A stretch of 64,000 bases of DNA from contig CAJQUW010007273.1 in assembly GCA_907163375.1 (NCBI GenBank), positions 363,001 through 427,000 of the forward strand, given 5' to 3'. A program made the position numbers and the translations under genes. The notes under the pieces are model-generated. The model searched no databases, was not told the origin of the DNA, and was given only the letters and a program-made list of their open reading frames with translations. Below, piece after piece: positions 25,810 to 52,078 of the stretch. Each line of letters starts with the position of its first letter. Position 1 is the first letter of the stretch. This stretch comes from Prostheceraeus crozeri (taxonomy: Eukaryota > Platyhelminthes > Polycladida > Euryleptidae).

Positions 25810-27465
25810 CAGTCCGTTTCATAAAAAGCGGATCAGCCTAAAATTTGACTAAATAAAACATAAGTATGATACAGAAAGCATTTTTCATGTTATTTCATGT
25901 CCCTAATATATTTAAATGTCCTTATATAATCTGATAAGCTATGATACAGTAACGGTTCTTAAGAAGCTAATATTTTGTGGCCCTACCCTTATTGCCAATG
26001 ACATTACCAATTCGTCTAGGCATTGATTCGATGATATCGTTGATTTTTGACTGATCTAACTTTCTCCACTCTCTTTTTAACAGTGACATAAGTTGTGATA
26101 CGCCATCTGTAGGTAGCAGTGAACGACGAACATTACGTTTTAGAATACTCCATACATTTTCTATGGGATTCAGATCAGGAGAACGAGCTGGCCAAGATAA
26201 TGTCCTAAGTCCTAATTGAGACTTGCATAAGTTGACTCTACTACTCCTGTGACACGTAGCATTATCATCCATAAATAACCAAGTCGATGGATCACCAAGT
26301 TGATCTGTCATTTGGCCAATGTTCATTCGTAAAACATTCACATAGCGTTCAGAATTCATGGTTCCCTGCTGTATGTGAAGTTCAGAGCGGCCATTGGTCC
26401 AAATGCCAGCCCAAATCAGTAGAGTCGCACCACCTTGTACCCGGGGACGATGTAAATGTCTCGGAATTTCCTGATCAGATTTTATCCATAATCTCAATCG
26501 ACCATCACTATCCTTCAGACGGACTGATGCCTCATCAGACCAGACAACCCGATCCCATTGATTTCGCCAGTGACAATGACTCATTGCCCATCTGAGACGT
26601 CTTTTTGTATGCTGATCTGATAATTCGATCTGAGAGGGCCTCTTACAGCTCTTGAAATTCGACTCAATAAGTCTTCTACGAACAGTGGACTTAGAAATAG
26701 ACGAGACTAGTGCAGCCATCTCAGTTAACGAGAGACTTGGATCAACTTTAGCAAATCTCAAAATTAGGCGGTCTCTACGTTTGGATGTTTTGCGTGGACG
26801 GCCAGAGCCCTCTTTACGACAGAGTCGAAAATCATCATTATGCCATCGATGCACATTTGTGTAAGGGACATTTAGTCGCTTGCTTGTAGCTCGCAAAGAA
26901 AAGCCTAGTTCTAGCAAGACTGACACTTTGCCTTTTGTGAATGCGATCTCGTTATTGTTCATCTGTGCTTTGTATTGTTATCAACCGGTAAGAGATAGAT
27001 TTCTAGCTGAAAGCAATCAGGAGTGCTGCCAACACCACGGCAACGAAGTCAGGAAGCTATGGAACATGAAGTCCAGTTAATCACATGTAGCAGTTACATT
27101 ATTGTTGATGAATAATGGTGCTATACTGGCTCTGATTGACCGATTTTCTTTATTTTTGTTTTGCTTGATAGCTTTTGGCTTGTAGAACAACATATTACAT
27201 AACAAAGGAAACAAATGTAATTTTATAAGAGTGAGGTATGATTTTGTGTAACATTGCTAAATGAAGATCAAATTATCTACTACTTTTTTATCTATAACAC
27301 GAAAACAACTCAATATTCATGCTTGAAATTTCCAACAATGATATTAGTAAGCACAACTGACATATCTTCCAAATTTCAGAGAAATTCGTTCAAGTTTGGC
27401 GGAGTTAGACAAAGTTGAAGTTAAGGCGATGTTTAAGGGTGATCCATTTTTTATGGAATAATCTG
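25810..27465 (-). mobile_element. Tc1/mariner-like transposon, 1.66 kb
   Basis: Imperfect terminal inverted repeats of about 33 bp bound the element: the left starts CAGTCCGTTTCATAAAAAGC, and the right, read inward on the minus strand, starts CAGATTATTCCATAAAAAAT. Both ends abut TA (25808-25809 and 27466-27467), the target duplication of this superfamily. It holds one intact transposase ORF on the minus strand and lies inside the hAT element 25399-27779. Confidence 0.85.
25967..26962 (-). CDS. Tc1-like transposase, intact ORF
   Basis: 331 residues from an ATG, close to the usual 330-350 for Tc1 transposases. It cuts and reinserts its own element at TA sites in the nucleus. The N-terminal half (residues about 1-110) has two helix-turn-helix-like parts joined by a GRPRKTSKRRDR hook (54-65) for binding the terminal repeats. 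The catalytic DDE core has Asp143 (WSDEASVR), Asp233 (MDDNATCHRS) and Glu268 (SPDLNPIENVW), with 34 residues between the second Asp and the Glu, the DD34E pattern of the Tc1 branch. All three residues are present and there is no stop or frameshift, so the protein may be functional. The terminal repeats on both sides are imperfect, so mobility is uncertain. Confidence 0.93.
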   Translation of the reverse strand: MNNNEIAFTKGKVSVLLELGFSLRATSKRLNVPYTNVHRWHNDDFRLCRKEGSGRPRKTSKRRDRLILRFAKVDPSLSLTEMAALVSSISKSTVRRRLIESNFKSCKRPSQIELSDQHTKRRLRWAMSHCHWRNQWDRVVWSDEASVRLKDSDGRLRLWIKSDQEIPRHLHRPRVQGGATLLIWAGIWTNGRSELHIQQGTMNSERYVNVLRMNIGQMTDQLGDPSTWLFMDDNATCHRSSRVNLCKSQLGLRTLSWPARSPDLNPIENVWSILKRNVRRSLLPTDGVSQLMSLLKREWRKLDQSKINDIIESMPRRIGNVIGNKGRATKY

Positions 27466-29610: not shown

Positions 29611-30126
29611 CACAGAATTAAATTGTTTAATCGTATCACTTTGCTAGAAGTGCAAACTGATTCAAACAGATGGCACATGCAGGAACTTAATAAGTGGGCA
29701 AAAAGAAATTTTTAATACCTTACAGAGATAGGAAAAATAGTCGTGCGTCGTTTGCGGATTGCTCTGAATTCCTTCAAAATGCTCCGATCGCCACGACTCC
29801 TTCACATTCGAAGAATTCAGATCATTGCGCAAACCTTTTCTCGATAATGTTGGGCTCTCCGATCATTTTAAAAAAAGTTAGCAGGCGCATGAAAAAACGT
29901 TCACAAACTTCTCTGTAGAACTTGACATCGACTCTCTTTGCTGTGTGATCCGGTTGATAAGTTACTGAAACTTTGCACAATTTGGCGTGTTTAATGGTGA
30001 ACTGGCTGCTGATTGTTCGATTGCTATGGTATTTAGTCAGTAGATTGTGCCATTTCATTTGCGTTACATGTTCCAATGCTTCCCTTCTAGTCAAACGGAA
30101 GAAGAGACGACCTGTCTAATTCTGTG
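29611..30126 (-). mobile_element. 0.52-kb MITE with 8-bp target duplication, copy 2
   Basis: The ends CACAGAATTA and TAATTCTGTG are inverted repeats. The flanks carry a perfect 8-bp duplication CTTGGAGC (29603-29610 and 30127-30134). The interior aligns in reverse orientation with the copy at 45131-45650 and the older copy at 20747-21268. The 8-bp duplication points to the hAT or P superfamily. No transposase is encoded. Confidence 0.85.
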
Positions 30127-30186
30127 CTTGGAGCACTTTATAGCTTCTCCATCTCTTTTGCGTGGTTTAAGTGTTTTGGAAGCATA

Positions 30187-30930
30187 ATGTCTCGGAAAGG
30201 TAGTTCTTCTAAAAGGAATGACCCACTGGAAATGACAGTCGATGAGCTGAAAGACAGTAAACTAACCAAGGCACAGTTATTGGAGGCTGTCATTTGCTTG
30301 AAAACGTTTACCCAAAGTACAGAGAGTAGGCCACCATCAAATCATTGCATCGTTGAGCAAAGTGAATTATTGTTGAACATGAATAGAAAACTTGATTTGC
30401 TAACAAAAGAAAATTCTACGTTACATGAGAAAGTCTCTGAACTTGAGAGGTTCATAACAATTCAAAGTGACATGATTGAATATCATGAAAGACCTTTCAG
30501 AAGGAAAAACATAATTTTCCATGGAATTTCTGAGGACGTTGGACATCTTAACTTAAAAGATTCGATTGAGAGCATTTTGGATGCCATTGGTGTTGACATT
30601 GACATTGATGGTGATGCTGAGTCTATGCACCGATTGGGTAAACTATCGAATGGGAAATATCGTCCTGTTAAGGCTGTTCTATCAGATCCTAAGAAGAAAT
30701 CTCTAATACTCTCGAAAGCGAAAAAATTGCATACTAATTACGAATTTAAGCATGTGTATATCAATCTGGATTACACTCCTGCTCAGCAAGAATATAATCA
30801 CAATCTTCGCATGCTTCGAGACAAAGAACGAGCAAAACCTGAAAACAAAGACAAGAAAATATGTATTTGGAAAAATAATTTGTACGTCGATGGTCATCGA
30901 ATCGACATCAAGTATCAACATTTTCAGTGA
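30187..30930 (+). CDS. LINE ORF1 protein (coiled coil plus RRM-like)
   Basis: 247 residues from the ATG at 30187; the frame is open a little further upstream, but this is its first ATG. The protein would bind LINE RNA as an oligomer in the retrotransposition particle. Residues about 55-100 are heptad-like (a coiled coil), then RRKNIIFHGISE opens an RRM-like domain. VKAVLSDPKKKSLILSKAKK and the region QQEYNHNLRMLRDKERAK follow, as in the C-terminal domain of ORF1 proteins of many non-LTR elements. It overlaps the next frame by four bases. No stop or frameshift is seen, although ORF2 is broken. Confidence 0.8.
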   Translation: MSRKGSSSKRNDPLEMTVDELKDSKLTKAQLLEAVICLKTFTQSTESRPPSNHCIVEQSELLLNMNRKLDLLTKENSTLHEKVSELERFITIQSDMIEYHERPFRRKNIIFHGISEDVGHLNLKDSIESILDAIGVDIDIDGDAESMHRLGKLSNGKYRPVKAVLSDPKKKSLILSKAKKLHTNYEFKHVYINLDYTPAQQEYNHNLRMLRDKERAKPENKDKKICIWKNNLYVDGHRIDIKYQHFQ

Positions 30931-31679
30931 ATGATTTTAGCTCAATCCGAATTTCTAAATGTCTGACATCACGAAAGCCGCTTAAATTGGGTCAGTCTGA
31001 CATTTCTCTTCTCTTGTTGAATGCACGTTCTGTCTTTAGAAAGTTTGATGAGTTATGTGTATTAAAGTCAATGTATCAACCTCTCATTATTGCGGTTACT
31101 GAATTATGGCTAAAAGCAGATGTGTCTGACGATATTTTGAAACTTAACTCATATTGTTTGTTTCATGACGATCGCTTGTCCCACAGGGATGGAGGTGTAT
31201 GTGTTTGGACTCATTCCAGTTTACATCCTTCGCTTATTTACCATCATAAAAGTGATGTTTTTGACTACGTCACTTTATTTATGGCTTCGATTCGAGTCTT
31301 ACTCTTGGCTCTGTATATTCCCCCGAGTTTATCTGCTTTCGAATGTGCCATCATATCATCTACAATCACTGATGTCATCGACTCCCACTTGCTTTCACAT
31401 CCAGACTCCGAAATAGTTTAGTGTGGTGATCTCAATAACTTCGACATGGTAAACCTGGAGGCACTGTTTGACTTATCTAACAAGGTTGATGCTCCCACGC
31501 GTGGGAATAGCATCCTAGATAAGGCATTCGCCAGCAACTCCATCACTTTGTTCAGTGACTGTGCCATACTTCCACCATTGTCGACGACAGATCTCAACTG
31601 CGTCTTGCTTATGAGCAAATCCAAAATTATTGACTTGACAACTACTCATGTAGTTAGAGATCTCAGTCAGTCAAACATT
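30927..31679 (+). pseudogene. LINE ORF2, endonuclease part, broken
   Basis: This is the start of the LINE polyprotein, an APE-type endonuclease that nicks target DNA. It has LLLLNARSVFRKFDEL (the N-A-R-S motif) and VTELWLKADV (the catalytic Glu in a T-E-x-W-L context). A TAG at 31419-31421 interrupts the frame just before CGDLNN, the usual G-D-x-N motif. The same frame then continues to 31679, where the LTR retrotransposon is inserted. No ATG opens this frame near the ORF1 end, so the natural start is unclear. The second part of ORF2 is at 41905-43860. Confidence 0.8.
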
Positions 31680-32568
31680 TGTAATGTTAGGATCGTTCTC
31701 AACCGTCAGGAAGTGAGCGATGCTAACATTAACTGCAGTTCTTAAATCCTCGACCCGTTGGACGATCCAAGATTGAAACCTAATGACCACTTAATATTAA
31801 TGAATAAAACAATCGGGGTAGAACAAATGAATAGTTATATTCCTGCCTTTACAACTTGGAAAAGAAAGAGAAGTGAGAATGATGACTACTAACAGAAGCA
31901 TGCACAAGTAGAGACTTAGATGAGTGTAATGCACGAAACTCGAGGCTCGGCGACACTCACCAGAAAATGTTGAATAAGGTCAAACAGACAGTTTGTAAGC
32001 GATACTTGTGCTCTGCTAGTGGTCTCGGAGGAGTCTTGTAATGTCATTTTATATTTCCGCAATCACCCAGGTTGAATAATTCTCCAAACTGTCGTCGAAT
32101 AAGAGTTGGCTACCGCGGATCACCTGCATCGTTGCGGTCCATCCATGGCGATTTGTCATGGACAACGTATCATTTCCAAAGTGATATAGTGTTGATAGTT
32201 GTTTTGCTGTCTCCGATGACCATTGTTGGTAGTGATTACACATATTGTCCATCGCCCTTGAACGGTTTGATCACGTTGTTTGTCTCTGATTCTGTTGTGC
32301 AATTTAGCATTTGTTAGTTGAGTCCGATGCTTGTATTTCTCCTGGTCTTTGCGTAATGCGACAATGAAAGATCCTTGCGTCATACCTCGGCACCGAAACT
32401 AATTAAGTTAAGGATTAAGGTATTTTATGTATGAAATCTAATTATTCAAAATAATGTTAACAGTATCTTATTTTCATATTTTAATAGGAACTAAAACCCC
32501 GGGATGTGTTTTACATCTTCTTATTATTTTCTAAACTTAATTGCAATAATAATTTGTGGAGTATTACA
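31680..32568 (-). repeat. 3' LTR
   Basis: 889 bp, starting TGTAATGTTAGG and ending GGAGTATTACA on the plus strand. By eye it is the same throughout as the copy at 41012-41900. In the element's orientation it is the downstream LTR. Confidence 0.95.
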
Positions 32569-32578
32569 TTCCTTATCC
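32569..32578 (-). other. possible polypurine tract
   Basis: Directly upstream of the 3' LTR in element orientation, the minus strand reads GGATAAGGAA, nine purines in ten bases. This is the place where plus-strand synthesis would be primed. It is short, so the call is tentative. Confidence 0.45.
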
Positions 32579-33506
32579 GTTGAGAAAAGTCGCGTCCCCG
32601 CGACAAATGATGTTTCTAAGTGCAGCTATATTTAAAAAATAAGTTTCTTATCTAGGTAAAAAAAATTATGGAAGGGATGCTAAATATATGGCGGATATAC
32701 GACTATTTTGGACTAATGAATGAAACTCTGTAATTATACGGTACGATGGTGCCGAGGAGACAAGGAATGCCGCCACCTCTACCGGCCCCGTATAGCCAAT
32801 GGGCGCGCCTCCGTGGACGTGATGAAATGAGCCGGCGACAGCCATAACAACAGAAGTTCGGACGGATTCCATTTCTATAATACAAAGGTGTTTCATTACT
32901 GATATGACGAGTACGGACATTTTATTAAATGAAAATGAAAAAGAAGGTTAACGCGAGAAACACAGTCATCATTCAAAGGCATTTGACATGAAGGTCTTGT
33001 TAGGACAAGGTAATCGACAGAGACGTTCAATTAAAGCAAGTTCTTAAGAAGAAAAAAATTCCAAGAAGTACATGTACAGTACATGCATGCATCAAGAAAA
33101 TTGCGATGAAATTCAAACGTTTCCTAAAATGGAGAAGTTCATAAACTAATCAAAGTTTTTCAAGTGACACACAGTAAAATTTCAGAAGAGAGTTCTACAA
33201 TTTACGACTAATCACCGAACACATGAATTAGGATAAAGAAATTTACACAATTACATTAAATTTCGTCAATAGAAGAAAAAACAGATTCAAATTACATATC
33301 TGGACATCACAAAGTGCCCCACACAGGGATAATTTTTAACTGCTACATTTTCAATACAACAGAATTGTAATAGTAATTGAACAATCATAATAGAATACGT
33401 AATTAACGTAAAGGAAAAAAAAATGTAGCAGAAACACTGACAGTATGATAAGAATATACGATATATTTCGGTGATTTGTGGATTCGGTCTGTTTTCTTTT
33501 TTCTTT
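32579..33506 (-). other. non-coding region between pol and 3' LTR
   Basis: About 0.93 kb without a convincing ORF. This is where an env gene would normally be expected in a gypsy-type element. I find no signal peptide, furin site or long frame here. A 107-codon frame (33287-33610) overlaps the pol end and is hydrophobic, but looks like chance. Confidence 0.6.
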
Positions 33507-36500
33507 TTAGTTTGTTGAGCTGGCAGAAACCGCAGCTCGAGACCGCAAATTATAAGGACATACAGAATTTTGCGATTGCTTATTGACTTGGATCGGAATA
33601 TCTGCGTCATTTATACGAGGTTCGTCTTGGTCGTTCAGAGTGATCGTTGGCCTAGGACTTCCATCTTTAATGTCAGATGGAGGAAAAACAGGTGTATGCT
33701 GATTTTTCGCTATTTTACAGCGATTAAGATTAACCCATTGACGCGAAGCTCGAGGTTGGTTTACCGGAACTATCAGCGCATTTGTGTCAGTTAATTGGAG
33801 AATACGGAAAGGTCCTTTCCATAGTTTTTGTAATTTTGGGGATAGTCCTTTCTTTGGCTGAGGAGTATAAACATAAATTCGGTCGCCAATAGTCAATTTT
33901 ACTGATGGTGTGGACGTTTTATCATACATCAATTTTTGATGTTCTTGAGCTTCCGTGTTATTATCTAAAGCCACTGACCAAGCAAGTTTTAGACGGTTTG
34001 ATAATTCAGATTTGTATTCCCGCACATCGAAAGGCATTTTTGTAGTTTGATCTTCTTGTAGCACTAAATCACAGGGGAGCAGTGGGTCTCTCCCAAAAAC
34101 TAAGTAATACGGACTTTCTTTTGTGGATGCATGTACGCTTGCACGATAAGCGAATAACACTGTGGGTATGTACAAATCCCAATCCGTTTGTGCTGCAGCG
34201 CAGTAATGCGACAGCATCCGTATGAGAACTCCATTCATTTTTTCACATAAGCCATCGGTAGCAGGATGATATGAACTGGTATATATCTTGTGCGTGTTCG
34301 TTAATCGGCATACTTCCCGCATTAATGTGCCTGCGAAGTTTGCTCCTCGGTCAGTTAATAATTCTCGCGGGGACCCAAAACGACAAACGATTTCATTCAC
34401 AAATATTCGTGCAACTGTCTCTGCCGATTGAGATTTCATAGCATAAGCTTCAACCCACTTAGAGGAATATTCGATAAATACGATGATGTATTTGTTTCCT
34501 CTTTCCGTTTTTGGTAGAGGCCCGACTATGTCACAAGCTATGCGTGTCCATGGATCAGGGACTGGAATTGAATGTAGAGGCATTTTTATTTTTGTATGCG
34601 GATTATTTTTCGCATTACATGACGGACAGTCTTGTAACCAGGTTTGAATGTCCTTGCGCATGTTAGGCCAAAAGTAAAATCTTGCAATTCTAGAGTAAGT
34701 TTTTTCAAATCCCAGGTGTCCACCGAAAATTCCCTCGTGAAATTCGAGAAATATATTGTGTCTATATGTAGCTGGTAGCACCAATTTCAATTTATCGTTT
34801 TGCTCTAAATGGTATAGTGTATCTTGTCGAATTCGAAATTTGTCAAACTCTTTGCGAACATACTCTTTGTCTGTATTGGATAATTTAACCGGACAGGATA
34901 TTCCCTTGAGTTTATTACTGATGGCTTGGAACAGGGAGTCTTCATTCTGTAAAGCTCTGACGTTGTTCATATCTGATATTGTACGCGTTACTGTAGTGCA
35001 TGTCAAATTTTGACTCGGGGACTCAGGAAGTCTAGACAAGGCGTCGGCATTATTGTTAACTCGTCCAGGCCTGTATTTAATAACCATATCAAATTCCTGT
35101 AATTTCAATGCCCATCGAATAAGCCGTGAAGAAGGATCTTTGTGAGAAAATAGCCATTTCAAAGGAGCATGATCTGTTACTACGACAAATGGTTTTCCCC
35201 ATAAATAACATCGAAATTGTTGAACTCCATATACAATGGCAAGAGTTTCTTTTTCAACCGTTGAAAAATTTCTTTCACTTTTATTGAGAGAACGGCTGGC
35301 ATATGCTATTGGGTGTTCATTTGATTTTTCGCCTTGGGACAATACTGCTCCTATTGCAAAATCGCTAGCGTCTGTATGTAGGATAAATTGCATTTGAAAA
35401 TTTGGAAATGCCAGTACTGGTGATGAGCATAATTTTGTCTTCAATTCTTCAAACGCACTTTGTTGGTCATTTTCCCATGTAAATTTTGCATCTTTCTTTT
35501 GTAGTCGTATTAATGGTTGTGCTATACTTGCGAAATTTTTGATAAATCTTCGGTAATATGAGGCAAGTCCTAGAAATTGTCTAATTTGTTTGATATTTCT
35601 TGGAACTGGATGATTTCTAATTTTCTCCGTATTTCTGGGGTCTGGTCTCATTCCGTCTGTTGATACGATGTGACCTAAATAATGGACCGATTTCTGCATA
35701 AACTCACATTTCTTGGGTTTAAATTTAAGACCACAATTTTTAAATCGGATGAGTAATTTTTCTAAGTCTTGGAGATGTTGTTCAAAGGAGGAAGAGTAAA
35801 CGATGATATCGTCAAGATAGACTAAACATGACTGATGTTGAATACCCGATAGAATTATTTCCATCGCTCTTTGAAAAGTTGAAGGAGCATTGCATAAACC
35901 AAATGGTAGTCTTTTGAACTGATATGTGCCAAAATACGTGGAAAAACATGTCATAGGTTTGGATGCTTCTGACATTTTTAGTTGCCAATAGCCAGAGAAT
36001 AGATCTAATGTCGTAAAGAATTTTGCATTCGTGAAATTATTGGCAATTTCTGTAATATTTGGAAGTGGATAACTATCCTTGATCGTAATTGCATTGAGTT
36101 TTCTGAAGTCCACTACAAATCTATCTGATCCATCTCGTTTTTTAACCAAAATAATGGGCGACGCGTAAGGACTGTTTGCCGGTTCAATAACGTCGGCTTG
36201 CAACATTTTATCTAAATGTTCTCTCAGTATAGGTTTTTGGCGTTCTGGGATTTTATAAGCTTTCTGGCGGATAGGTATATCGCTCTCCGTGCGTATCTGA
36301 TGTTCAACTCCTTCAAATAGTCCAAGATCGAACTCATTCAGTGAAAATACTGATTTATATTTAAGCAATAGTGCAATTAATTTGTCTAATTGCCATGGTA
36401 GCAAGCTTGGTGGGAGATTGAATAATTGCAAAAATTCTTTGTTTGATAATTCCGACTTTGATAGCTGATCATTGTTTTTTAATGATTCCTTGGTATAGGA

Positions 36501-38357
36501 GTAAGGCTTAACTTCACCCATTGTTTTTCCTTGGTTAAGCTGAATGGGTTCTTGCGAATAATTCGTTACCTTTAATGGTATGTGCTCTTGATTTGTAAAA
36601 GCTAAACTTGCTGCGACGACAATATGGGGATGAATACGATCATGAGGTTCGAATATTACTTCACTGATATCATTATCCTCAACTGTTCCATAAACAATCA
36701 TTTCTGATCTTGGGGGTACAACTATATCATTTGCGATTTTTACTAAACAAACGTGCTGTTCGGCTTCCGGAATTTCCATAACTTCTTTAACGTAGTCAAT
36801 GGTTATTGGACCCAATTTGGACAATAAATCGGTGCCCAAAATAGTTTCAAACGGAGCGTCTTTCAATACCACAACGTTGTGTCTGATAAACGTATCTCCA
36901 ATTTGAATTTTCGCCATTGTTTTTCCTAGGAGTACTAACTTAGTACCATTTACTCCTTTGGCCGTTGTATTCGTCGGCTCGATTGGCAATTTCAAATTTT
37001 GATGTAGCTTTTGACTCATAAGTGTTATTGAAGATCCAGTATCTAAAAGTGCGTTAACTGGGCGTCCCTGAATGTGTATTTTGATAAGAGAATTACGTGT
37101 AGTACCACATGCAGCAACAATGGATGCATTATTTGGTGCATAATTTATAGGCCAACTCTCATCAATTAAATCCATTTCTAGTGGTGCGGACGGCTCCATG
37201 ACCTCTGCTACTCCAGCTATGTATTCTTTCCTGTGAAACGGCAGCCGTGGCATTCGCAATTTTGGCGAGCGCTTTGCAATTTTTCGTGCAACCCATTGTA
37301 AAAGTTTGTAAAGCATTTGAACAGTGAAAATGCTACAGACGAGAAAAATCCATATTTCGCGGAAATTGAGTCGGAATCCTAACAGGAATCCGAATGACGT
37401 TTTATGAGATATCGTGTTTATTACATTTCTTGAAGCTGACTCTACGTCTGAACTTGGGTCTGCACCTAATTCCTCTAGGATACGTTGGTGACGAGAAATT
37501 GCATGGAAAATGTCGTTGGTAGAGTGTCGGGGTGAAAAATCTTTCCAGTCATGCACTGCCATGTTATGGAAAATTGTATGAGGGCTATCCGGCAGGGCAG
37601 ACCAATTAAATGTAAAAACTGGTAGTCTGTCAAATGATTTCAAAATCTCCAGGGATCCATCTGATTTATAATTGAAACAACTCTTTGAGATGCAGAATGG
37701 TATCTCTTGACGAGCATCACATGGGACATTTGGAGAATGATGTTGAATTATATTTGTCAATGGATCCATATAAGCAGTTCGATTTCTTCCAAATATGCGA
37801 AAATTGATTGGTAAGCGTGTGGTACATGAATTTCGCATCGGCAAAAATTCATAACTTTCTACTGGACTACATGGCCACACTTCTAAATAGTCGGTTGTGC
37901 TGCGTGCATGGATATACTCGGTATTCAAAATATTTCTTGCAACCAAGGTAGGGTGTGAGATTAAAGATGCCTTCAGTATTGAAATGGTTGATTTGTGATT
38001 ATTGCATATGGCCATCATCGCATTATTGAATGAAAATTTCACATAATTTGTCAGTGTTATTTGTAGTGCTTGTAACTGTGCAGCAACTGCCTCTGATGAA
38101 GTGGCGCTCCTCTTTGGTCTTAAACTGTTATTGAGAAATTCTTTTTGAAATGACGGAAACAAGTTTGACTTCTTTGCGATGTTTCTTGTGTTTACGTATA
38201 AGCCCTGTTCAGTCATAGTCAGTATCTTTCCACAATTGTTGTAATCTACTCTCTTTTTTGGAAACGTGATTGCTATATTGCTATCATCAGAAAGCCAAGC
38301 GTTGCCTAACTGGTGGCCACTTAATCTTTTCCAAAAAACGATATTTACATTCTTCAC
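33507..38357 (-). CDS. pol: Env C-terminal part - protease - RT - RNase H - integrase ORF
   Basis: 1,616 codons without a stop. Residues 1-360 are the C-terminal part of the envelope-like glycoprotein: a furin-type RPKR site (80-83), a Cys-containing ectodomain and a transmembrane segment at about 335-356, followed by a basic tail. Then come an aspartic protease (DTGS, 439-442); reverse transcriptase (YLDD, 847-850); RNase H (Asp996, Glu1035 or 1037, Asp1062); an integrase zinc finger (His1207/1214, Cys1244, Cys1247); the integrase core (Asp1276, Asp1336, Glu1372, 35 residues between the last two); a GPF motif (1515-1517); and a PYNLR tail (1601-1605). The first codon is GTG and lies inside the previous frame, which it overlaps by about 90 open bases in the +1 frame. 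It is therefore expected to be made by frameshifting, or the frame has been split by a one-base indel. Confidence 0.92.
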   Translation of the reverse strand: MKNVNIVFWKRLSGHQLGNAWLSDDSNIAITFPKKRVDYNNCGKILTMTEQGLYVNTRNIAKKSNLFPSFQKEFLNNSLRPKRSATSSEAVAAQLQALQITLTNYVKFSFNNAMMAICNNHKSTISILKASLISHPTLVARNILNTEYIHARSTTDYLEVWPCSPVESYEFLPMRNSCTTRLPINFRIFGRNRTAYMDPLTNIIQHHSPNVPCDARQEIPFCISKSCFNYKSDGSLEILKSFDRLPVFTFNWSALPDSPHTIFHNMAVHDWKDFSPRHSTNDIFHAISRHQRILEELGADPSSDVESASRNVINTISHKTSFGFLLGFRLNFREIWIFLVCSIFTVQMLYKLLQWVARKIAKRSPKLRMPRLPFHRKEYIAGVAEVMEPSAPLEMDLIDESWPINYAPNNASIVAACGTTRNSLIKIHIQGRPVNALLDTGSSITLMSQKLHQNLKLPIEPTNTTAKGVNGTKLVLLGKTMAKIQIGDTFIRHNVVVLKDAPFETILGTDLLSKLGPITIDYVKEVMEIPEAEQHVCLVKIANDIVVPPRSEMIVYGTVEDNDISEVIFEPHDRIHPHIVVAASLAFTNQEHIPLKVTNYSQEPIQLNQGKTMGEVKPYSYTKESLKNNDQLSKSELSNKEFLQLFNLPPSLLPWQLDKLIALLLKYKSVFSLNEFDLGLFEGVEHQIRTESDIPIRQKAYKIPERQKPILREHLDKMLQADVIEPANSPYASPIILVKKRDGSDRFVVDFRKLNAITIKDSYPLPNITEIANNFTNAKFFTTLDLFSGYWQLKMSEASKPMTCFSTYFGTYQFKRLPFGLCNAPSTFQRAMEIILSGIQHQSCLVYLDDIIVYSSSFEQHLQDLEKLLIRFKNCGLKFKPKKCEFMQKSVHYLGHIVSTDGMRPDPRNTEKIRNHPVPRNIKQIRQFLGLASYYRRFIKNFASIAQPLIRLQKKDAKFTWENDQQSAFEELKTKLCSSPVLAFPNFQMQFILHTDASDFAIGAVLSQGEKSNEHPIAYASRSLNKSERNFSTVEKETLAIVYGVQQFRCYLWGKPFVVVTDHAPLKWLFSHKDPSSRLIRWALKLQEFDMVIKYRPGRVNNNADALSRLPESPSQNLTCTTVTRTISDMNNVRALQNEDSLFQAISNKLKGISCPVKLSNTDKEYVRKEFDKFRIRQDTLYHLEQNDKLKLVLPATYRHNIFLEFHEGIFGGHLGFEKTYSRIARFYFWPNMRKDIQTWLQDCPSCNAKNNPHTKIKMPLHSIPVPDPWTRIACDIVGPLPKTERGNKYIIVFIEYSSKWVEAYAMKSQSAETVARIFVNEIVCRFGSPRELLTDRGANFAGTLMREVCRLTNTHKIYTSSYHPATDGLCEKMNGVLIRMLSHYCAAAQTDWDLYIPTVLFAYRASVHASTKESPYYLVFGRDPLLPCDLVLQEDQTTKMPFDVREYKSELSNRLKLAWSVALDNNTEAQEHQKLMYDKTSTPSVKLTIGDRIYVYTPQPKKGLSPKLQKLWKGPFRILQLTDTNALIVPVNQPRASRQWVNLNRCKIAKNQHTPVFPPSDIKDGSPRPTITLNDQDEPRINDADIPIQVNKQSQNSVCPYNLRSRAAVSASSTN

Positions 38358-39024
38358 TCTTATCCGGCTTCCAGATCATATACGAATTGTCTGAGAGTGC
38401 ACAACGTCCTTTTTGGTATGAGCATGTGCCTACATTTCCTCCACTGGATTCCATATAATTGCTAGCGTGACGCTTATAAACTGCAACATCCATTAGATAA
38501 CAATTTGTGACTTCAGTTCTATAATAACGACAACAATGGAATGGAGCTGTCGGCCATTCAAATTCATACTTTTTGTTAGTGGTCCAAACATCATTAGCGA
38601 ATACAAGTTTGCCATCGTAGCATTCCTTTTTCTTTATCATATGTTGACATTCCTCGTATGTCATTCGTAAGTGTTCCGTTTTTTTCTTAAGCCTTCTCTC
38701 ATCTCCAAAAAGGAATATGAGAGCATCAAAAGTTTTTCTTATTTTTATGCAATGAAATCCTTTTGAGTGATATTGTACTATGTTTTCCTTGTACAATGTA
38801 TAATCTTTAGAAATTGGTGTGGCTTTGTTTGATTCCATAACTTGGCATTCTTTTATCTTTGGAATATGCCACACTAATTTACCAGTTTTTGATTGGCAAA
38901 CCATGGGATTCGTGAATGCATCAACTGAATAGCATAGTGTCAATAACATGATCAATAATAGCGTTTTATTCCAAGGAATTGCATGATGCGTCAGTTTTTG
39001 CACAATGCTTTTTGAACATTTCAT
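37270..39024 (-). other. env: envelope-like glycoprotein region spanning both ORFs
   Basis: From an internal ATG at 39022-39024 (residue 671 of the upstream frame) follows a typical signal peptide, with a hydrophobic core TLLLIMLLTLCYSV at 691-704 and a small residue before the likely cleavage point. A Cys-rich, Trp- and Tyr-rich ectodomain runs to the end of that frame (38287). In the next frame it continues with the RPKR cleavage site, further Cys pairs, NWS and NRT sequons and a membrane anchor ending near 37290. Signal, cleavage site and anchor are what a fusion glycoprotein needs. The layout recalls the class III-like glycoproteins that invertebrate retroelements share with chuvirus-type RNA viruses, but this relation is only an impression. 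The frame changes within 38287-38357, so as it stands the region is not one open frame. Confidence 0.7.
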
Positions 39025-40935
39025 AATAGCGTAAAGTCGCGAATTTTTCTCTTTGAACTTGTTGTGAAAAACAGTAGCTTCAGTATTCTTTTCTACCTCT
39101 GCCTCAATTTGTTTGTGTATATTGGACTTTCCCTCGATGTCATTGATTTGACTATACGTTATTGATATGCCACACGAAGTATATTCAGACATAGTACTGT
39201 TCTTAAGCGTTTTTGGTATGGAAGTTTTCGTTATATCCGTATTTACTACTTCATCGTGACAGGATGCTGTATGTGAATCTAAGATTTCCTCTCCTGCACA
39301 TAAAGGATTCGGTCTTACTTTGCATTCCACGGTCTGGGGAACGCTTTGAGATGTTGGAATTTCCAGGGCGCAGACAATCGACGGTTCCTCATTGACCTTC
39401 ACCACTTGTGCGGTTCTGTCATTGTCCTCTTGACGATATGATTGCGTCGGAGATTCAATAAATAGCTGTTGGAGGTCATTCAACATTGCGTCATTGTTTG
39501 TAGAGGATTCTCCGTAGATGCCGTTGCAGTCGTCTGGGTGCTCAATGTAGACGATTTCTCTCTCCGTCTCGCTAAGTTCATCCTCGTCGTTCGGCGCATT
39601 ATGAGACTGTAAAATATATGGATTAGTTATCATTTCGCTAGGAGTCGGCGAATTTACACCAGCAACATATATATTCATATCTCTCTCGTTTCTTAAACGT
39701 GTTATAGCGCAATCATCATCTATGTCATCAACTGAATTTGCTACGTAAAAGTTATCATTTGTAGAGTAGCTTGACCTGCTACCTTCGTGCCTGTGGTCGA
39801 AATTTCTCTGCAAATCTTCAGTAGTTACTGCGTTCTGAGTAGTACGACCGGAATAATTACGATTTGAGGAAAAGGGTATTTGTTGTGTCTGTGTTGAAAA
39901 TCTAGAAATATTTCTGTTTACCTCGCTTCCCGAAAATTGGTTTTGGCGTGGCTGTGGCTGTTGCGAATCAAATCTTACCCTTCCTCCCCGCTGTGGAAGT
40001 CTTACAGGAGACGAGTATTGTGGCCTTCCTGTATAGTGATATCTCAGCCGTCGATTATTATTGAATTGGGATGATATCGGTCCGCGACATTCCCGTGCAT
40101 AATGTCCACGTTTATTGCAGCGCCTGCAGACGGGCTGCCCGTCGATCGTCCATTGGTTTGCTAAAGGTTTTGAAGTCCAAGCGTGTCGTTGTTGTGGCTG
40201 CTGTAAGTCACAAGGGCAATTTTGGTTGCTGTTTGGAAATTGAGAATTTGAATTTATCTGAGACATAAGTGTATTTATCTGGTCCGATATTGTAGAAACC
40301 ATTTTAAAACTGTCTGATGAATTATCTTCAAACAATACACTTCTTTGGCTATACAGTCTTTGTGCTAAATTGATCGCATCTTCGAAAGAAGGTGGATCGT
40401 TCTGTATCAAAATCTTTTTATACTCTGCTTTCAATCCGTTTATAAAGGCATTCATGGCTAAAGAGGATCTTACCGACTGATCCATATGAGGATAGGCTGT
40501 GCGAGCTAACCTTCTGATGGCTGCCGAAAATGAAGAAATGCTCTCTCCAATCTCTTGTTTCCTGTTGTGAAGACTCGAGGCCGCTGACCGTTGTAGATCC
40601 ACTGGTTGCAGTCGCGATGTTAATTCTGCTACAATTGTTCTGTAATCGGTTTTGGCTGCTGAAGGAAGTTGCCTGAAAGTTTCTAATGCATGAGATGTCA
40701 AATACATGGGGAGCATATTTGTTTTCTGCTTATCATTCCAACCTAGTGCACGACCAGTTAAATCAAGCTGATCGATGAATTCTGAAAATGTAAGCCCATT
40801 TTCATCCAAATCACCTGAAAAAACAGGTAGCGAGAAAACACTGTTAGTTTGTGGCACAAGTTTTGGACTTTGCAAAGGCAGGTCTTCTAATTTTAATGAA
40901 ATTTCCTTAAGCAAATTTGTGATGTCCGTGGACAT
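38287..40935 (-). CDS. gag: Gag with fused signal peptide and Env N-terminal part
   Basis: 882 codons from the ATG at 40933-40935, the first ATG after the primer-binding site; the frame is open 33 codons further upstream into the LTR. Counting from that upstream end, residues about 70-240 have the helical capsid-like composition of Ty3/gypsy Gag (a GRALGWNDKQK region, then an ALETFRQLP region). Residues 303-316 are a CCHC zinc knuckle (C-x2-C-x4-H-x4-C) for RNA binding. A long acidic and Ser/Thr-rich linker (about 320-680) follows. Unusually, the frame then runs without stop into a signal peptide (about 671-706) and a Cys-rich ectodomain. If translated through, Gag would be anchored to the ER membrane. 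A typical gypsy Gag ends after the knuckle and is less than half this length. Confidence 0.88.
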   Translation of the reverse strand: MSTDITNLLKEISLKLEDLPLQSPKLVPQTNSVFSLPVFSGDLDENGLTFSEFIDQLDLTGRALGWNDKQKTNMLPMYLTSHALETFRQLPSAAKTDYRTIVAELTSRLQPVDLQRSAASSLHNRKQEIGESISSFSAAIRRLARTAYPHMDQSVRSSLAMNAFINGLKAEYKKILIQNDPPSFEDAINLAQRLYSQRSVLFEDNSSDSFKMVSTISDQINTLMSQINSNSQFPNSNQNCPCDLQQPQQRHAWTSKPLANQWTIDGQPVCRRCNKRGHYARECRGPISSQFNNNRRLRYHYTGRPQYSSPVRLPQRGGRVRFDSQQPQPRQNQFSGSEVNRNISRFSTQTQQIPFSSNRNYSGRTTQNAVTTEDLQRNFDHRHEGSRSSYSTNDNFYVANSVDDIDDDCAITRLRNERDMNIYVAGVNSPTPSEMITNPYILQSHNAPNDEDELSETEREIVYIEHPDDCNGIYGESSTNNDAMLNDLQQLFIESPTQSYRQEDNDRTAQVVKVNEEPSIVCALEIPTSQSVPQTVECKVRPNPLCAGEEILDSHTASCHDEVVNTDITKTSIPKTLKNSTMSEYTSCGISITYSQINDIEGKSNIHKQIEAEVEKNTEATVFHNKFKEKNSRLYAIMKCSKSIVQKLTHHAIPWNKTLLLIMLLTLCYSVDAFTNPMVCQSKTGKLVWHIPKIKECQVMESNKATPISKDYTLYKENIVQYHSKGFHCIKIRKTFDALIFLFGDERRLKKKTEHLRMTYEECQHMIKKKECYDGKLVFANDVWTTNKKYEFEWPTAPFHCCRYYRTEVTNCYLMDVAVYKRHASNYMESSGGNVGTCSYQKGRCALSDNSYMIWKPDKSEECKYRFLEKIKWPPVRQRLAF

Positions 40936-40992
40936 TTTGATCAAATTTTGTTTGGTCTTACTTCGAGTCTCAATCTTGGTTCGACCGTGCTC

Positions 40993-41010
40993 ATCTCGGT
41001 GGGACCTCCA
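40993..41010 (-). other. primer-binding site, tRNA-Gln(UUG)
   Basis: One base after the 5' LTR in element orientation, 18 bases are complementary to a tRNA 3' end. On the plus strand they read ATCTCGGTGGGACCTCCA, which includes the CCA tail and agrees fully with the 3' end of animal tRNA-Gln(UUG) as I know it. It primes minus-strand DNA synthesis. Confidence 0.9.
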
Positions 41011-41011
41011 G

Positions 41012-41900
41012 TGTAATGTTAGGATCGTTCTCAACCGTCAGGAAGTGAGCGATGCTAACATTAACTGCAGTTCTTAAATCCTCGACCCGTTGGACGATCC
41101 AAGATTGAAACCTAATGACCACTTAATATTAATGAATAAAACAATCGGGGTAGAACAAATGAATAGTTATATTCCTGCCTTTACAACTTGGAAAAGAAAG
41201 AGAAGTGAGAATGATGACTACTAACAGAAGCATGCACAAGTAGAGACTTAGATGAGTGTAATGCACGAAACTCGAGGCTCGGCGACACTCACCAGAAAAT
41301 GTTGAATAAGGTCAAACAGACAGTTTGTAAGCGATACTTGTGCTCTGCTAGTGGTCTCGGAGGAGTCTTGTAATGTCATTTTATATTTCCGCAATCACCC
41401 AGGTTGAATAATTCTCCAAACTGTCGTCGAATAAGAGTTGGCTACCGCGGATCACCTGCATCGTTGCGGTCCATCCATGGCGATTTGTCATGGACAACGT
41501 ATCATTTCCAAAGTGATATAGTGTTGATAGTTGTTTTGCTGTCTCCGATGACCATTGTTGGTAGTGATTACACATATTGTCCATCGCCCTTGAACGGTTT
41601 GATCACGTTGTTTGTCTCTGATTCTGTTGTGCAATTTAGCATTTGTTAGTTGAGTCCGATGCTTGTATTTCTCCTGGTCTTTGCGTAATGCGACAATGAA
41701 AGATCCTTGCGTCATACCTCGGCACCGAAACTAATTAAGTTAAGGATTAAGGTATTTTATGTATGAAATCTAATTATTCAAAATAATGTTAACAGTATCT
41801 TATTTTCATATTTTAATAGGAACTAAAACCCCGGGATGTGTTTTACATCTTCTTATTATTTTCTAAACTTAATTGCAATAATAATTTGTGGAGTATTACA
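41012..41900 (-). repeat. 5' LTR
   Basis: 889 bp, the same length as and apparently identical to the copy at 31680-32568. In element orientation it is the upstream LTR and would hold the promoter. The target duplication CATT follows at 41901-41904. Confidence 0.95.
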
Positions 41901-41904
41901 CATT

Positions 41905-43860
41905 GATAAGTATGTTCATGCTCCTTCGTGCCTTGATTTTCATGATATGTATATAACGGAAGACATTGATCAAAAACTCATGATATTCTACTCAATGCTA
42001 TGGTCTTGCATCAATCTGATTCCACAAACCACTATAACGATGACAACAAAATATAAGCCCTGGATCACTCCTGCAATAAAACATATGATCAATCTTTGTT
42101 GGAAAGCTTTTAAAACCAATAACATGGCTGTGTATAATCACTACAAATGCAAAACGAAAGATGTGATTCGCAAAGCCAAAGTCCGATGGGCATCCAAGTG
42201 TACTGAATTGACTAGAAGCGTATGGAAGGTTGTGAATGAACTTCGTGGCTCCAAACAAAGATCATGCATCGGCAATTTGATTTCAGAATATCCTAGCATC
42301 CAGGATTGTTGGTAACGGCATAAACGACGCCTTTAAGAAGGTATTTATAGATGAAGAAGCTGTAAGCAACTTCATGTTATCTGTTGACGGGTATGGTTAT
42401 GCTTTAGATGATACGTGGTGTCCTTTGACCGAGCCACATTCCGTCTATTCTCTTCTTAGAAAACTCTCTATAAACAAATCAACCGGTAGTGACGGAGTAC
42501 ATCCTCGGTTCCTGAAAGAAGGTGCCTTGTTTCTTGCTGAACCGGTCACACACATAGTCAATACTTGTATTCTGCTAAAACATATGCCTAAATTATGGAA
42601 GTTTGGTACCATATGTCCTGTTCCAAAAACACCTGTACCAAGAATCGATCAACTTCGACCAATCACACTTCTGCCTATTTTGGCCAAAGTATTTGAGAAC
42701 CTGGTGCTGTCAAGCATCAAACCAAAAATTCTGCGTTATATCGACAAGAATCAATTTACGTATATTCCATCATCAACAACGTGTGCTCTCATCCATTTGC
42801 ATGATAGAATCACTAAGCTTTTGGAAATTATCGATAACGTTGGTGTTGCTTTCTTGAATCCAGACTGCTCTAAAGCGTTTGACACTATTTCGCATAAGGT
42901 TCTAGTTGAAAAGTTGATGAAATTTCATTTTCCATCGGATTTCGTGCAGTTTATTGCGTCTTACCTTGCGATCTATTTCAAGCAATACGTATAGGTGATT
43001 ATCAAAGCGAATATGTGGCTGTCACCAGTGGAGTACCACAAGGGTCAATCATTAGTCCCTTCTTGTTCATATTATATACGGTGGACCTCATAGAAATGCC
43101 TGTGAATTACATCAAATATGCAGATGATACTTTAATCATTCATCCAATATTCCACAACATCACTGAGTCATCATTCATCCAATATTCCACAACATCACTG
43201 AGTCAGTGAGCACTTTGAAGTCAACATTTTCCTCAATCGTGAAAAGAGTGAGACATTGCATTTGAAGGTAAATGTTGAAAAGTCCAAGCTGATATTGTTC
43301 CATAAAAAAGGCCTCTCTCTAAACAGAATGTGGTCGATTTGTATACCTGATGTTCCTAAAGTAAATTACATCAACATCTTTGGGGTTACTTTCAGTTCCG
43401 ACCTCAAGTGAGACAGACACTTTTCGAATGTTATTAAGAAGTGCAACAGTCGACTTTACGTTATGCTATGCGCATCATCAAAGACGTTGTTTCCCAAAAA
43501 GTTCTTACTTCTACATTCTATGGAATAGTTGTTTCACTATTGGATTATGTTTCTGCTGTATTTGTTTCCTTGCCGGCTCATCTACAGCATCACATTAACA
43601 CTCTCTTCAAAAGATGTCATCGTATTTTACATGGTTACTTTTGTGAATGTGATAAACTTGAGAATCCCAATGAACGCCGCTTTCGCATTGCTCATAAATT
43701 GTTCCTCTCAGCGGAAAAAAATCAACAGCACTCGCTACACTGTCTCATACCATATAGATTATCCAGAGCAAAGAAGTCTACAATTAAATTGACGAAAACC
43801 AGCAGAAGACACAGGCAATTCCAGGTTTTCATGTTGTCCTATCATGGTGGCCAAGCTTAA
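41905..43860 (+). pseudogene. LINE ORF2, reverse transcriptase part, broken
   Basis: Continuation of the LINE polyprotein beyond the LTR element. It has the linker KPWITPAIKHMINLCWKAFK, then a frame change and stop near 42315. The reverse transcriptase follows in another frame: NKSTGSDGVHPRFLK, RPITLLPILAKVFENLV, FLNPDCSKAFDTISH. A stop near 42994 and a further frame come next, with SGVPQGSIISPFLF and the catalytic YADD. A 35-bp tandem duplication (43137-43206) breaks it again, and a last open piece (43441-43860) carries the typical C-terminal region. APE endonuclease plus this RT suggests the CR1/Jockey group. At least three breaks make it inactive. Confidence 0.85.
43137..43206 (+). repeat. 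35-bp tandem duplication in LINE RT
   Basis: The unit beginning CATTCATCCAATATTCCACA occurs twice, head to tail, at 43137-43171 and 43172-43206, without visible differences. Thirty-five is not a multiple of three, so the event shifts the reading frame just after the YADD motif. Confidence 0.9.
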
Positions 43861-50694: not shown

Positions 50695-52078
50695 TATACT
50701 GCTCGCCAATAAGAAGTAGGACAATGGTCTCTAAGTTAAGTATAGACTGAAAACAGACCATAATCCAGACAAATATGCGTGTATTGATTGTAACAGGCAT
50801 GTATAAAGCTTATAAGAGGTCATTCATTATCGCGTGTGACCCCATCGAGTTTGAATGCATTGTTGAAGTCGTCCAGGCACTCTGTCAATAATGTGCTGAA
50901 TAGTCTCTAGGAACTTGGTTCCACTGGTAACGTAGCCTCTCCAGAAGTTATTCAAAAGTTGCCGGAGTAGTGAGCATTCGTCTGTTAGTTTTCGTTGTAG
51001 AACGTCACACACATGCACTACTGGCGATATGTCAGGGGATCTTGAAGGCCAATCAATCAGAAAAGCATTAGAATTTCGCAGCGTCGTGTTCACAGACGTA
51101 GCAGTATGTGGCCTAGCATTGTCTTGCTGAAGAGTAAGTCCAAATTCGTCGCAAGTTGGAATCATGATTGGCGTCATTATTTGGTCTCGATACTAATCAT
51201 CGTTCACTGTACCCTCTAGTCCAAATGAATCAATTCCGTTTTGCTCTCGTACCAGATTCCGGCCCAAACCATTATACTTCCACTTCCATGTCGATCATGC
51301 TCTGCGATGCAACAATCTGCAAACCGCTCTGTGGACAGACGACGAACTTGCACTCTTCCATCGTGAAAATCCAAGCAAAACCGAGATTCATGTGTCCACA
51401 GAATCCTGCGCCAAAAAGCAAAAGGAGCATCTATCAGGTTCCTACACCAATCAAATATTGTCTTACGCTGACTTAATGTTAGTGGTATTCGTAAAACAGG
51501 CCTGTAGGAACGATAACCGCCACATAGCATTTGTCTATAGGCAGTTCGAAGTGAAAACGTTGGGCGTCCAGGATGATGTAACCATTTGTAAACACTTCTC
51601 ATGCTACAAAATCTGCATCTTTTCCCTGCTAAAATAGGTCGTTGATCTTGCCTCCCACTAGTAATTCTTCGTCTACCACTACCTGGTTATCTCTCAACAT
51701 GTCCTTCTTCTCTATATTTATTTCACCGTTTCTCCACTGTTCTTTTAGAACAGTTCATCTTTCTCGCAACTTCTCCAATCGATACACCGGCTTCTAGCAT
51801 AAATAGGCTCGACAAGACGACCTTCATGAAAAAGTCACCTAATTGCTGTATTTCGTTATCTCAACTGAAGTCTGATCGAAGAAGTCGGGCATTTTAAAAG
51901 ATTGCTGACACAGTGAACATTGTTCATATTGTGTTTGTGTGATAAATACAATGAATCAACAATGAACGCAATTGAATAGTGATTCATTACAGCATAAAAC
52001 ATTTGGAAGTTTCAATAAAGTTTAGGTTCAATTCCCTGAAATTATGCTGTCCTATACCTTTTATTGGCGAGCAGTATA
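50695..52078 (-). mobile_element. inactive Tc1-like transposon, 1.38 kb
   Basis: Terminal inverted repeats of about 30 bp bound it: TATACTGCTCGCCAATAAGA at the left and, read inward from the right, TATACTGCTCGCCAATAAAA, followed by a shared TAGGAC. The ends abut TA. Inside is a frameshifted transposase relic on the minus strand. This family is different from the Tc1 element at 25810-27465 in both terminal repeat and protein sequence. Confidence 0.85.
50827..51602 (-). pseudogene. Tc1-like transposase relic, frameshifted, catalytic residues lost
   Basis: Two overlapping frames together cover the catalytic part of a Tc1 transposase. The first (51216-51602) has HPGRPTFSLRTAYR and LWTHESRF, in which the first catalytic Asp of the usual WTDESRF is His. 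It ends near a GSIMVWAGI motif. The second (50827-51177) has LQQDNARPHTA with the second Asp intact, then SPDISPVVHVCDVL, in which the third catalytic residue (Glu of NPIEHVWD) is Val. Further N-terminal sequence upstream is too decayed to follow. A frameshift plus two lost catalytic residues make it inactive. Confidence 0.85.

Follow-up and report, generated by a model that had tools for sequence, protein, structure and literature searches.

An envelope-like gene between Gag and protease in a Ty3/gypsy-type retrotransposon family of the flatworm Prostheceraeus crozeri

We analyzed a 64,000-nt stretch of the genome of the polyclad flatworm Prostheceraeus crozeri (assembly GCA_907163375.1, contig CAJQUW010007273.1, positions 363,001 to 427,000), referred to here as the window, in whose coordinates positions are given. 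At 31680-41900, on the minus strand, it contains a Ty3/gypsy-type long terminal repeat (LTR) retrotransposon in which Gag, an envelope glycoprotein (Env), aspartic protease (PR), reverse transcriptase (RT), RNase H and integrase (IN) follow one another in that sequence. The features of this copy and the open reading frames (ORFs) that carry them are as follows.

41012-41900, minus strand: 5' LTR, 889 bp, identical to the other LTR
40993-41010, minus strand: primer-binding site adjoining the 5' LTR, read from the sequence
40084-40935, minus strand: Gag, from the first ATG through a capsid-like part to the CCHC knuckle (40084-40131), placed by Pfam matches below cut-off, ATG positions and BLAST to the Gag of relatives
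39025-40083, minus strand: fast-evolving, stop-free linker from the knuckle to Env, from the ORF list and the substitution rates given below
38287-39024, minus strand: N-terminal half of Env, at the end of ORF1, with the signal-peptide-like hydrophobic stretch at 38908-38964
38287-38375, minus strand: overlap of ORF1 and ORF2, the frame-break site of this copy, from the ORF list; continuous in a sister copy and in relatives
37299-38375, minus strand: C-terminal half of Env, with RPKR at 38109-38120, the class III match at 37686-38024 and the anchor at 37299-37355
36819-37085, minus strand: PR, from Pfam
35091-36146, minus strand: RT (35664-36146) and RNase H (35091-35477), from Pfam
34263-34775, minus strand: IN, H2C2 zinc domain and core, from Pfam
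32699-32947, minus strand: remnant of ORF3, 83 amino acids (aa), the remainder being deleted in this copy
31680-32568, minus strand: 3' LTR, 889 bp, identical to the other LTR

The two LTRs of the window copy show no differences over 889 nt, have TG..CA-type ends (TGTAAT..ATTACA) and are flanked by a 4-bp target duplication, CATT; the duplications TAAG, GTAC and CCTT were found at three other copies. We take the primer-binding site to resemble the 3' end of tRNA-Gln. An Rfam scan returned no match at the gathering threshold, and a tRNA scan returned none. PR, RT, RNase H and IN score well over their Pfam cut-offs, and the Gag families all fall below theirs (Ty3_capsid, 20.1 bits against 29.1; zf-CCHC, 20.3 against 20.8). 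With that qualification for Gag, the identical LTRs and the Pfam matches bear out the LTR element described in the initial annotation of this DNA. The proteins nearest to its PR-RT are gypsy-type by name or domains; the RT trees described below contain no other superfamily. No BEL/Pao family is present among the 12 Pfam matches of ORF2.

Between the Gag knuckle and the DTGS motif of PR, we located a signal-peptide-like hydrophobic stretch (ORF1 aa 692-710), a cysteine-rich ectodomain, an RPKR site (ORF2 aa 86-89) and a membrane anchor (ORF2 aa 341-359), as the initial annotation had described. What had been overlooked is that the glycoprotein is split in this copy over two ORFs in different frames, 38287-41037 and 33507-38375, which overlap by 89 nt. 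Because a sister copy and relatives are unbroken at the same place, the break belongs to the window copy or its sequencing. Given that the LTRs are identical, the break would be very young, or the copy was mobilized by the proteins of other copies. A programmed frameshift at the ORF1/ORF2 overlap was considered and ruled out, since neither the sister copy nor the relatives have a break at this point.

Unbroken copies exist. The sister copy, on contig C1541, is 98-99% identical to the window copy and has a single stop-free frame of 2502 aa, which opens ahead of the Gag start, extends through the whole of pol and includes the CCHC knuckle, Env and the DTG and YLDD motifs. A search of the genome (2.05 Gb, 14165 contigs) with the C-terminal half of Env gave at least 109 matches of graded divergence at E<=1e-5. 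This count is a lower bound, with 107 of 218 candidates scored and some contigs contributing two pieces; other genomic copies thus do have the region, whose absence from them would have refuted the initial interpretation. Seven matches are themselves stop-free and lie in open frames of 2191-2729 aa. We examined the 30 best-scoring loci (L031, the window copy, to L060) with their surroundings: the N-terminal half of Env is present in all 30 and PR in 27, and both Env halves, PR and RT share one stop-free frame in 12. The remaining loci are interrupted by stops or shifts, and a copy on C10263 is without PR and RT. In the seven LTR pairs compared, the differences are 0/889, 0/890, one gap, 1/902, one difference with two gaps, 0/908 and 4/749, so several lines of the element moved recently. 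The family is large and recently active, and an envelope domain inside Gag-Pol, as originally proposed, is found in the 12 one-frame loci, in the sister copy read from Gag to the end of pol and in seven database proteins described below.

Several profile and structure comparisons point to Env being a class III membrane fusogen, of the type of Monjiviricetes glycoproteins and herpesvirus gB. The env part of ORF2 alone matches the Pfam family PF24664 (Monjiviricetes_fusion) at 27.6 bits, just over the cut-off of 27; within the whole ORF2 the same family scores 24.7 bits, below it. PF24664 was matched in seven of ten Envs scanned from the same genome (E<=0.01), with gB matched in two and rhabdovirus G in two. 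The class III matches of relatives are far over cut-off, at 9.8e-96 in P0036 and 7.2e-102 in P0038. A low-confidence predicted structure of Env retrieves gB and Monjiviricetes glycoproteins, and all 15 of its fold matches in the PDB at E<=0.001 are gB; the check by structure prediction, proposed as one that might show the region not to be a membrane glycoprotein, thus gave no such outcome. No F-type fusion family appears among the Pfam or fold matches of Env. Across all 17 Envs aligned, 11 cysteines are invariant. RxKR is present in the own-genome rows of Env alignments A1 and A3, and RPKR-like sites are missing from some relatives. Other searches were less productive: a single-sequence fold prediction was uninformative (predicted local distance difference test score, 38), a PDB sequence search gave nothing for the C-terminal half and one unrelated weak match for the N-terminal half, a PDB search with the env profile reached gB at E 0.16, which is not significant, and a PHROGs search gave nothing useful.

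By the ratio of nonsynonymous to synonymous substitution rates (dN/dS), purifying selection acts on Env to a degree similar to that in PR. Between L032, the C1541 sister copy, and L033, dN/dS is 0.20 and 0.15 in the two Env halves, 0.15 in PR, 0.04 in RT and 0.68 in the linker, and between L050 and L051 it is 0.17 and 0.15 in the Env halves, 0.10 in PR and 0.10 in RT. With values of 0 to 0.51 across Env and PR, pairs with few differences (L035/L038, L035/L037, L039/L041, L040/L041 and L058/L060) are little informative, and the most distant pairs (L032/L041 and L058/L059) are saturated at synonymous sites. Env and RT distances are correlated (r 0.89 over 17 rows, with 0 of 2000 permutations as high), so that Env has travelled with pol. 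There is also a sign of recombination between copies, in that Env of the window copy (37220-38375) is identical to that of C1541 over 372 codons beside an RT that differs at 12% of synonymous sites.

The same order of domains was found in database proteins. A protein search with PR-RT returned 3889 proteins, the best 120 of which were considered, and Env is carried by eight of the 129 proteins examined (P0029, P0030, P0036, P0038, P0044, P0047, P0069 and, in part, P0032), seven of these eight having been used to build the Env profile. The seven long Env-bearing proteins, of 2294-2774 aa, all contain, in this order, CCHC, a hydrophobic stretch, an anchor and DTGS, and Env is followed in them by PR-RT-RNase H-IN. 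Upstream of Env, similarity to Gag was detected by BLAST in six of the seven and by Pfam, below cut-off, in P0069. Further searches added none: ORF2 aa 1-430 had no protein match at E<=0.01, the Env alignment A1 gave ten matches with Env only in the already known P0029, and scans of viral contigs with the env part, the RT part and Env alignment A3 confirmed no relative.

In a first RT tree of 116 rows, the env label needs six changes, three of them forced by the starred branches, and one of 500 shuffles was as low. Among the env-bearing rows of this tree fall P0046, a protein of 1782 aa in which env was not detected, and P0058, which is short at 1090 aa. A second tree was shortened to 52 rows by removing P0046, P0058, the partial P0032 and other rows. 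There the env-bearing rows cluster, with two changes and 0 of 500 shuffles as low, and a single env-bearing clade is not rejected by the approximately unbiased (AU) test (p-AU 0.077). A group in which no Env was detected, including the insect proteins P0050 (Osmia) and P0113 (Euphydryas), adjoins the env-bearing rows. Neither tree, of 116 or 52 rows, demonstrates a single origin of the Gag-Env-Pol order.

The region after IN, where env would usually be placed, had been described as 0.94 kb of empty sequence. The region did not start out empty: the window copy retains the first 83 aa of ORF3, some 1.35 kb being gone. Most of a 524-aa ORF3 (L062:3137-4708), which matches no Pfam family above cut-off, is encoded in C1541 by a 1347-nt stretch, absent from the window copy, close to the 3' LTR. 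ORF3 also lies beside the 3' LTR in four other copies, on C13863 (L015 and L016), C3404 (L019), C3751 (L028) and C4607 (L018), so that, across this family, the position that env normally takes cannot simply be called empty. The first ~372 aa of ORF3 are constrained (dN/dS 0.23, 0.47, 0.36 and 0.59), and beyond ~372 aa the same frame gives 3.9, 2.8 and 3.7, as would be seen if a different frame were coding in that part. The C10263 copy is also without ORF3, with a deletion edge slightly different from that of the window copy. In two relatives, hydrophobic stretches follow IN (P0038 aa 2457-2548 and P0036 aa 2435-2595), and P0038 has an immunoglobulin-like domain as well.

A few further observations concern the surroundings. 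Plus-strand ORFs at 30091-31421 and 41827-42994 flank the element and by eye resemble an older non-LTR retrotransposon, into which the element looks to have been inserted. A 107-aa minus-strand ORF with a hydrophobic stretch (33287-33610) runs across the end of pol in a different frame and may be due to chance, and minus-strand ORFs at 25967-26977 and 51216-51686 resemble Tc1/mariner transposases by eye. Elsewhere in the genome, part 525-889 of the LTR recurs about every 4.3 kb at C111:453-22183 (six places, 85-87% identity), as if a piece of the LTR lay within a tandem array.

We propose, with a probability of roughly 0.65, that this Ty3/gypsy-type family encodes a single Gag-Env-PR-RT-RNase H-IN polyprotein with a class III Env that would be made as one chain at the endoplasmic reticulum (ER). 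The genome-length RNA would be translated at the ER, with Gag remaining cytosolic and the internal signal peptide directing the ectodomain of Env to the lumenal side. The anchor would then bring the chain back to the cytosol, leaving PR, RT and IN on that side, and the parts may be separated by signal peptidase, by a furin-like protease at RPKR and by the element's own PR. The long, fast-evolving, stop-free linker could provide room between Gag and the membrane. Such a chain would need neither splicing nor frameshifting to supply equal amounts of Gag, Env and Pol, and the resulting particles would bear a fusogen and could move between cells as errantiviruses do. In flavivirus and alphavirus polyproteins, internal signal peptides and anchors determine the topology; the analogy is one of mechanism only, these viruses being unrelated to the window element. 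To the wider proposal, that the family represents an infectious retrovirus-like lineage with a membrane-threaded Gag-class III Env-Pol polyprotein, using flavivirus- and alphavirus-like expression logic to produce Env equal to Gag and Pol with neither splicing nor frameshifting, we would give even odds.

Against the view that Env is functional, the N-terminal half of Env has a dN/dS of 0.71 in the comparison of the window copy with C1541, from six differences, some of them perhaps beyond the break. At one locus, L043, in-phase splice-like pairs surround env. These pairs would fit an alternative based on splicing, in which unspliced RNA yields Gag-Env(-Pol), and either an RNA with env removed yields Gag-Pol or a subgenomic RNA yields Env, as in errantiviruses. 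Env does form a compact block between Gag and PR, and insect endogenous retroviruses produce Env from spliced RNA (PMC12992720). We nevertheless regard splicing as rather unlikely. It is weakened by a simple consensus scan that found no in-phase donor and acceptor pair around env in seven of eight loci, within a reach of only ~800 nt upstream of env that leaves donors in gag outside, and under splicing a stop-free linker and a single frame would be unnecessary.

Alternatively, the element may be non-infectious, the fusogen being retained to bring Gag-Pol to the membrane or for intracellular budding. Numerous copies in one genome would equally fit purely vertical spread, and a signal peptide and anchor are what membrane targeting alone requires, but the whole ectodomain is conserved, with its invariant cysteines, RxKR and dN/dS of 0.15-0.20, beyond the needs of an anchor, and we think this explanation improbable. 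That an env fragment merely landed in a gag-pol element, through a chance event in this copy or an error of assembly, might be suggested by the frame break inside env of the window copy and is already refuted by the graded-divergence matches, the same-order database proteins and the selection on Env, leaving it a negligible chance.

Comparison with known systems, as far as the cited texts describe them, places the polyprotein arrangement apart from other envelope-bearing elements. Errantiviruses and insect endogenous retroviruses such as gypsy and ZAM likewise combine Ty3/gypsy-type pol and LTRs with a captured fusogen that has a furin site and an anchor (PMC12992720). Their env is a third ORF after pol, encodes an F-type (baculovirus-like) protein and is expressed from spliced RNA (PMC12992720). 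The window element has neither an env after pol nor an F-type Env; its Env is apparently class III and is placed, in a shared frame, between Gag and PR. Anakin, a mosquito BEL/Pao element with a chuvirus glycoprotein, is likewise an LTR element, and it took its class III glycoprotein from a virus with a negative-strand RNA genome (PMC7642597). Its pol is BEL/Pao, and that of the window element Ty3/gypsy-type. Endogenous Jingchuvirales glycoproteins in arthropods, of the same broad class, also lie beside gypsy-type sequence, as here; they are described mostly as fragments, with two in complete elements, an unclassified one in Bemisia and Anakin in Anopheles (PMC10084718). In TelKA of bdelloid rotifers, too, an LTR element carries an env that derives from a negative-strand RNA virus, but this env is F-type and forms ORF3 after pol (PMC5408684). 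Troyka and Cer1 have Gag-Pol without an intervening stop, as here, in a polyprotein without Env (PMC12440569; PMC10309623). Identity with Troyka was excluded, as it has no envelope and has CG..CG ends (PMC12440569).

We found no description of a Gag-Env-Pol order in the accessible text of the literature searched, a scope that excludes most subscription papers and the eLife survey of Chary & Hayashi (2025). Where the order is stated for env-bearing LTR elements in that literature, Env is a separate gene after pol and is often spliced. An Env placed within Gag-Pol and kept by selection, both in numerous copies and in distant relatives, would be a second way to an enveloped retroelement. How the ratio of Env to Gag and Pol is set from one chain becomes testable, and a Gag-Env-PR frame is a marker by which such elements may be found in other genomes.

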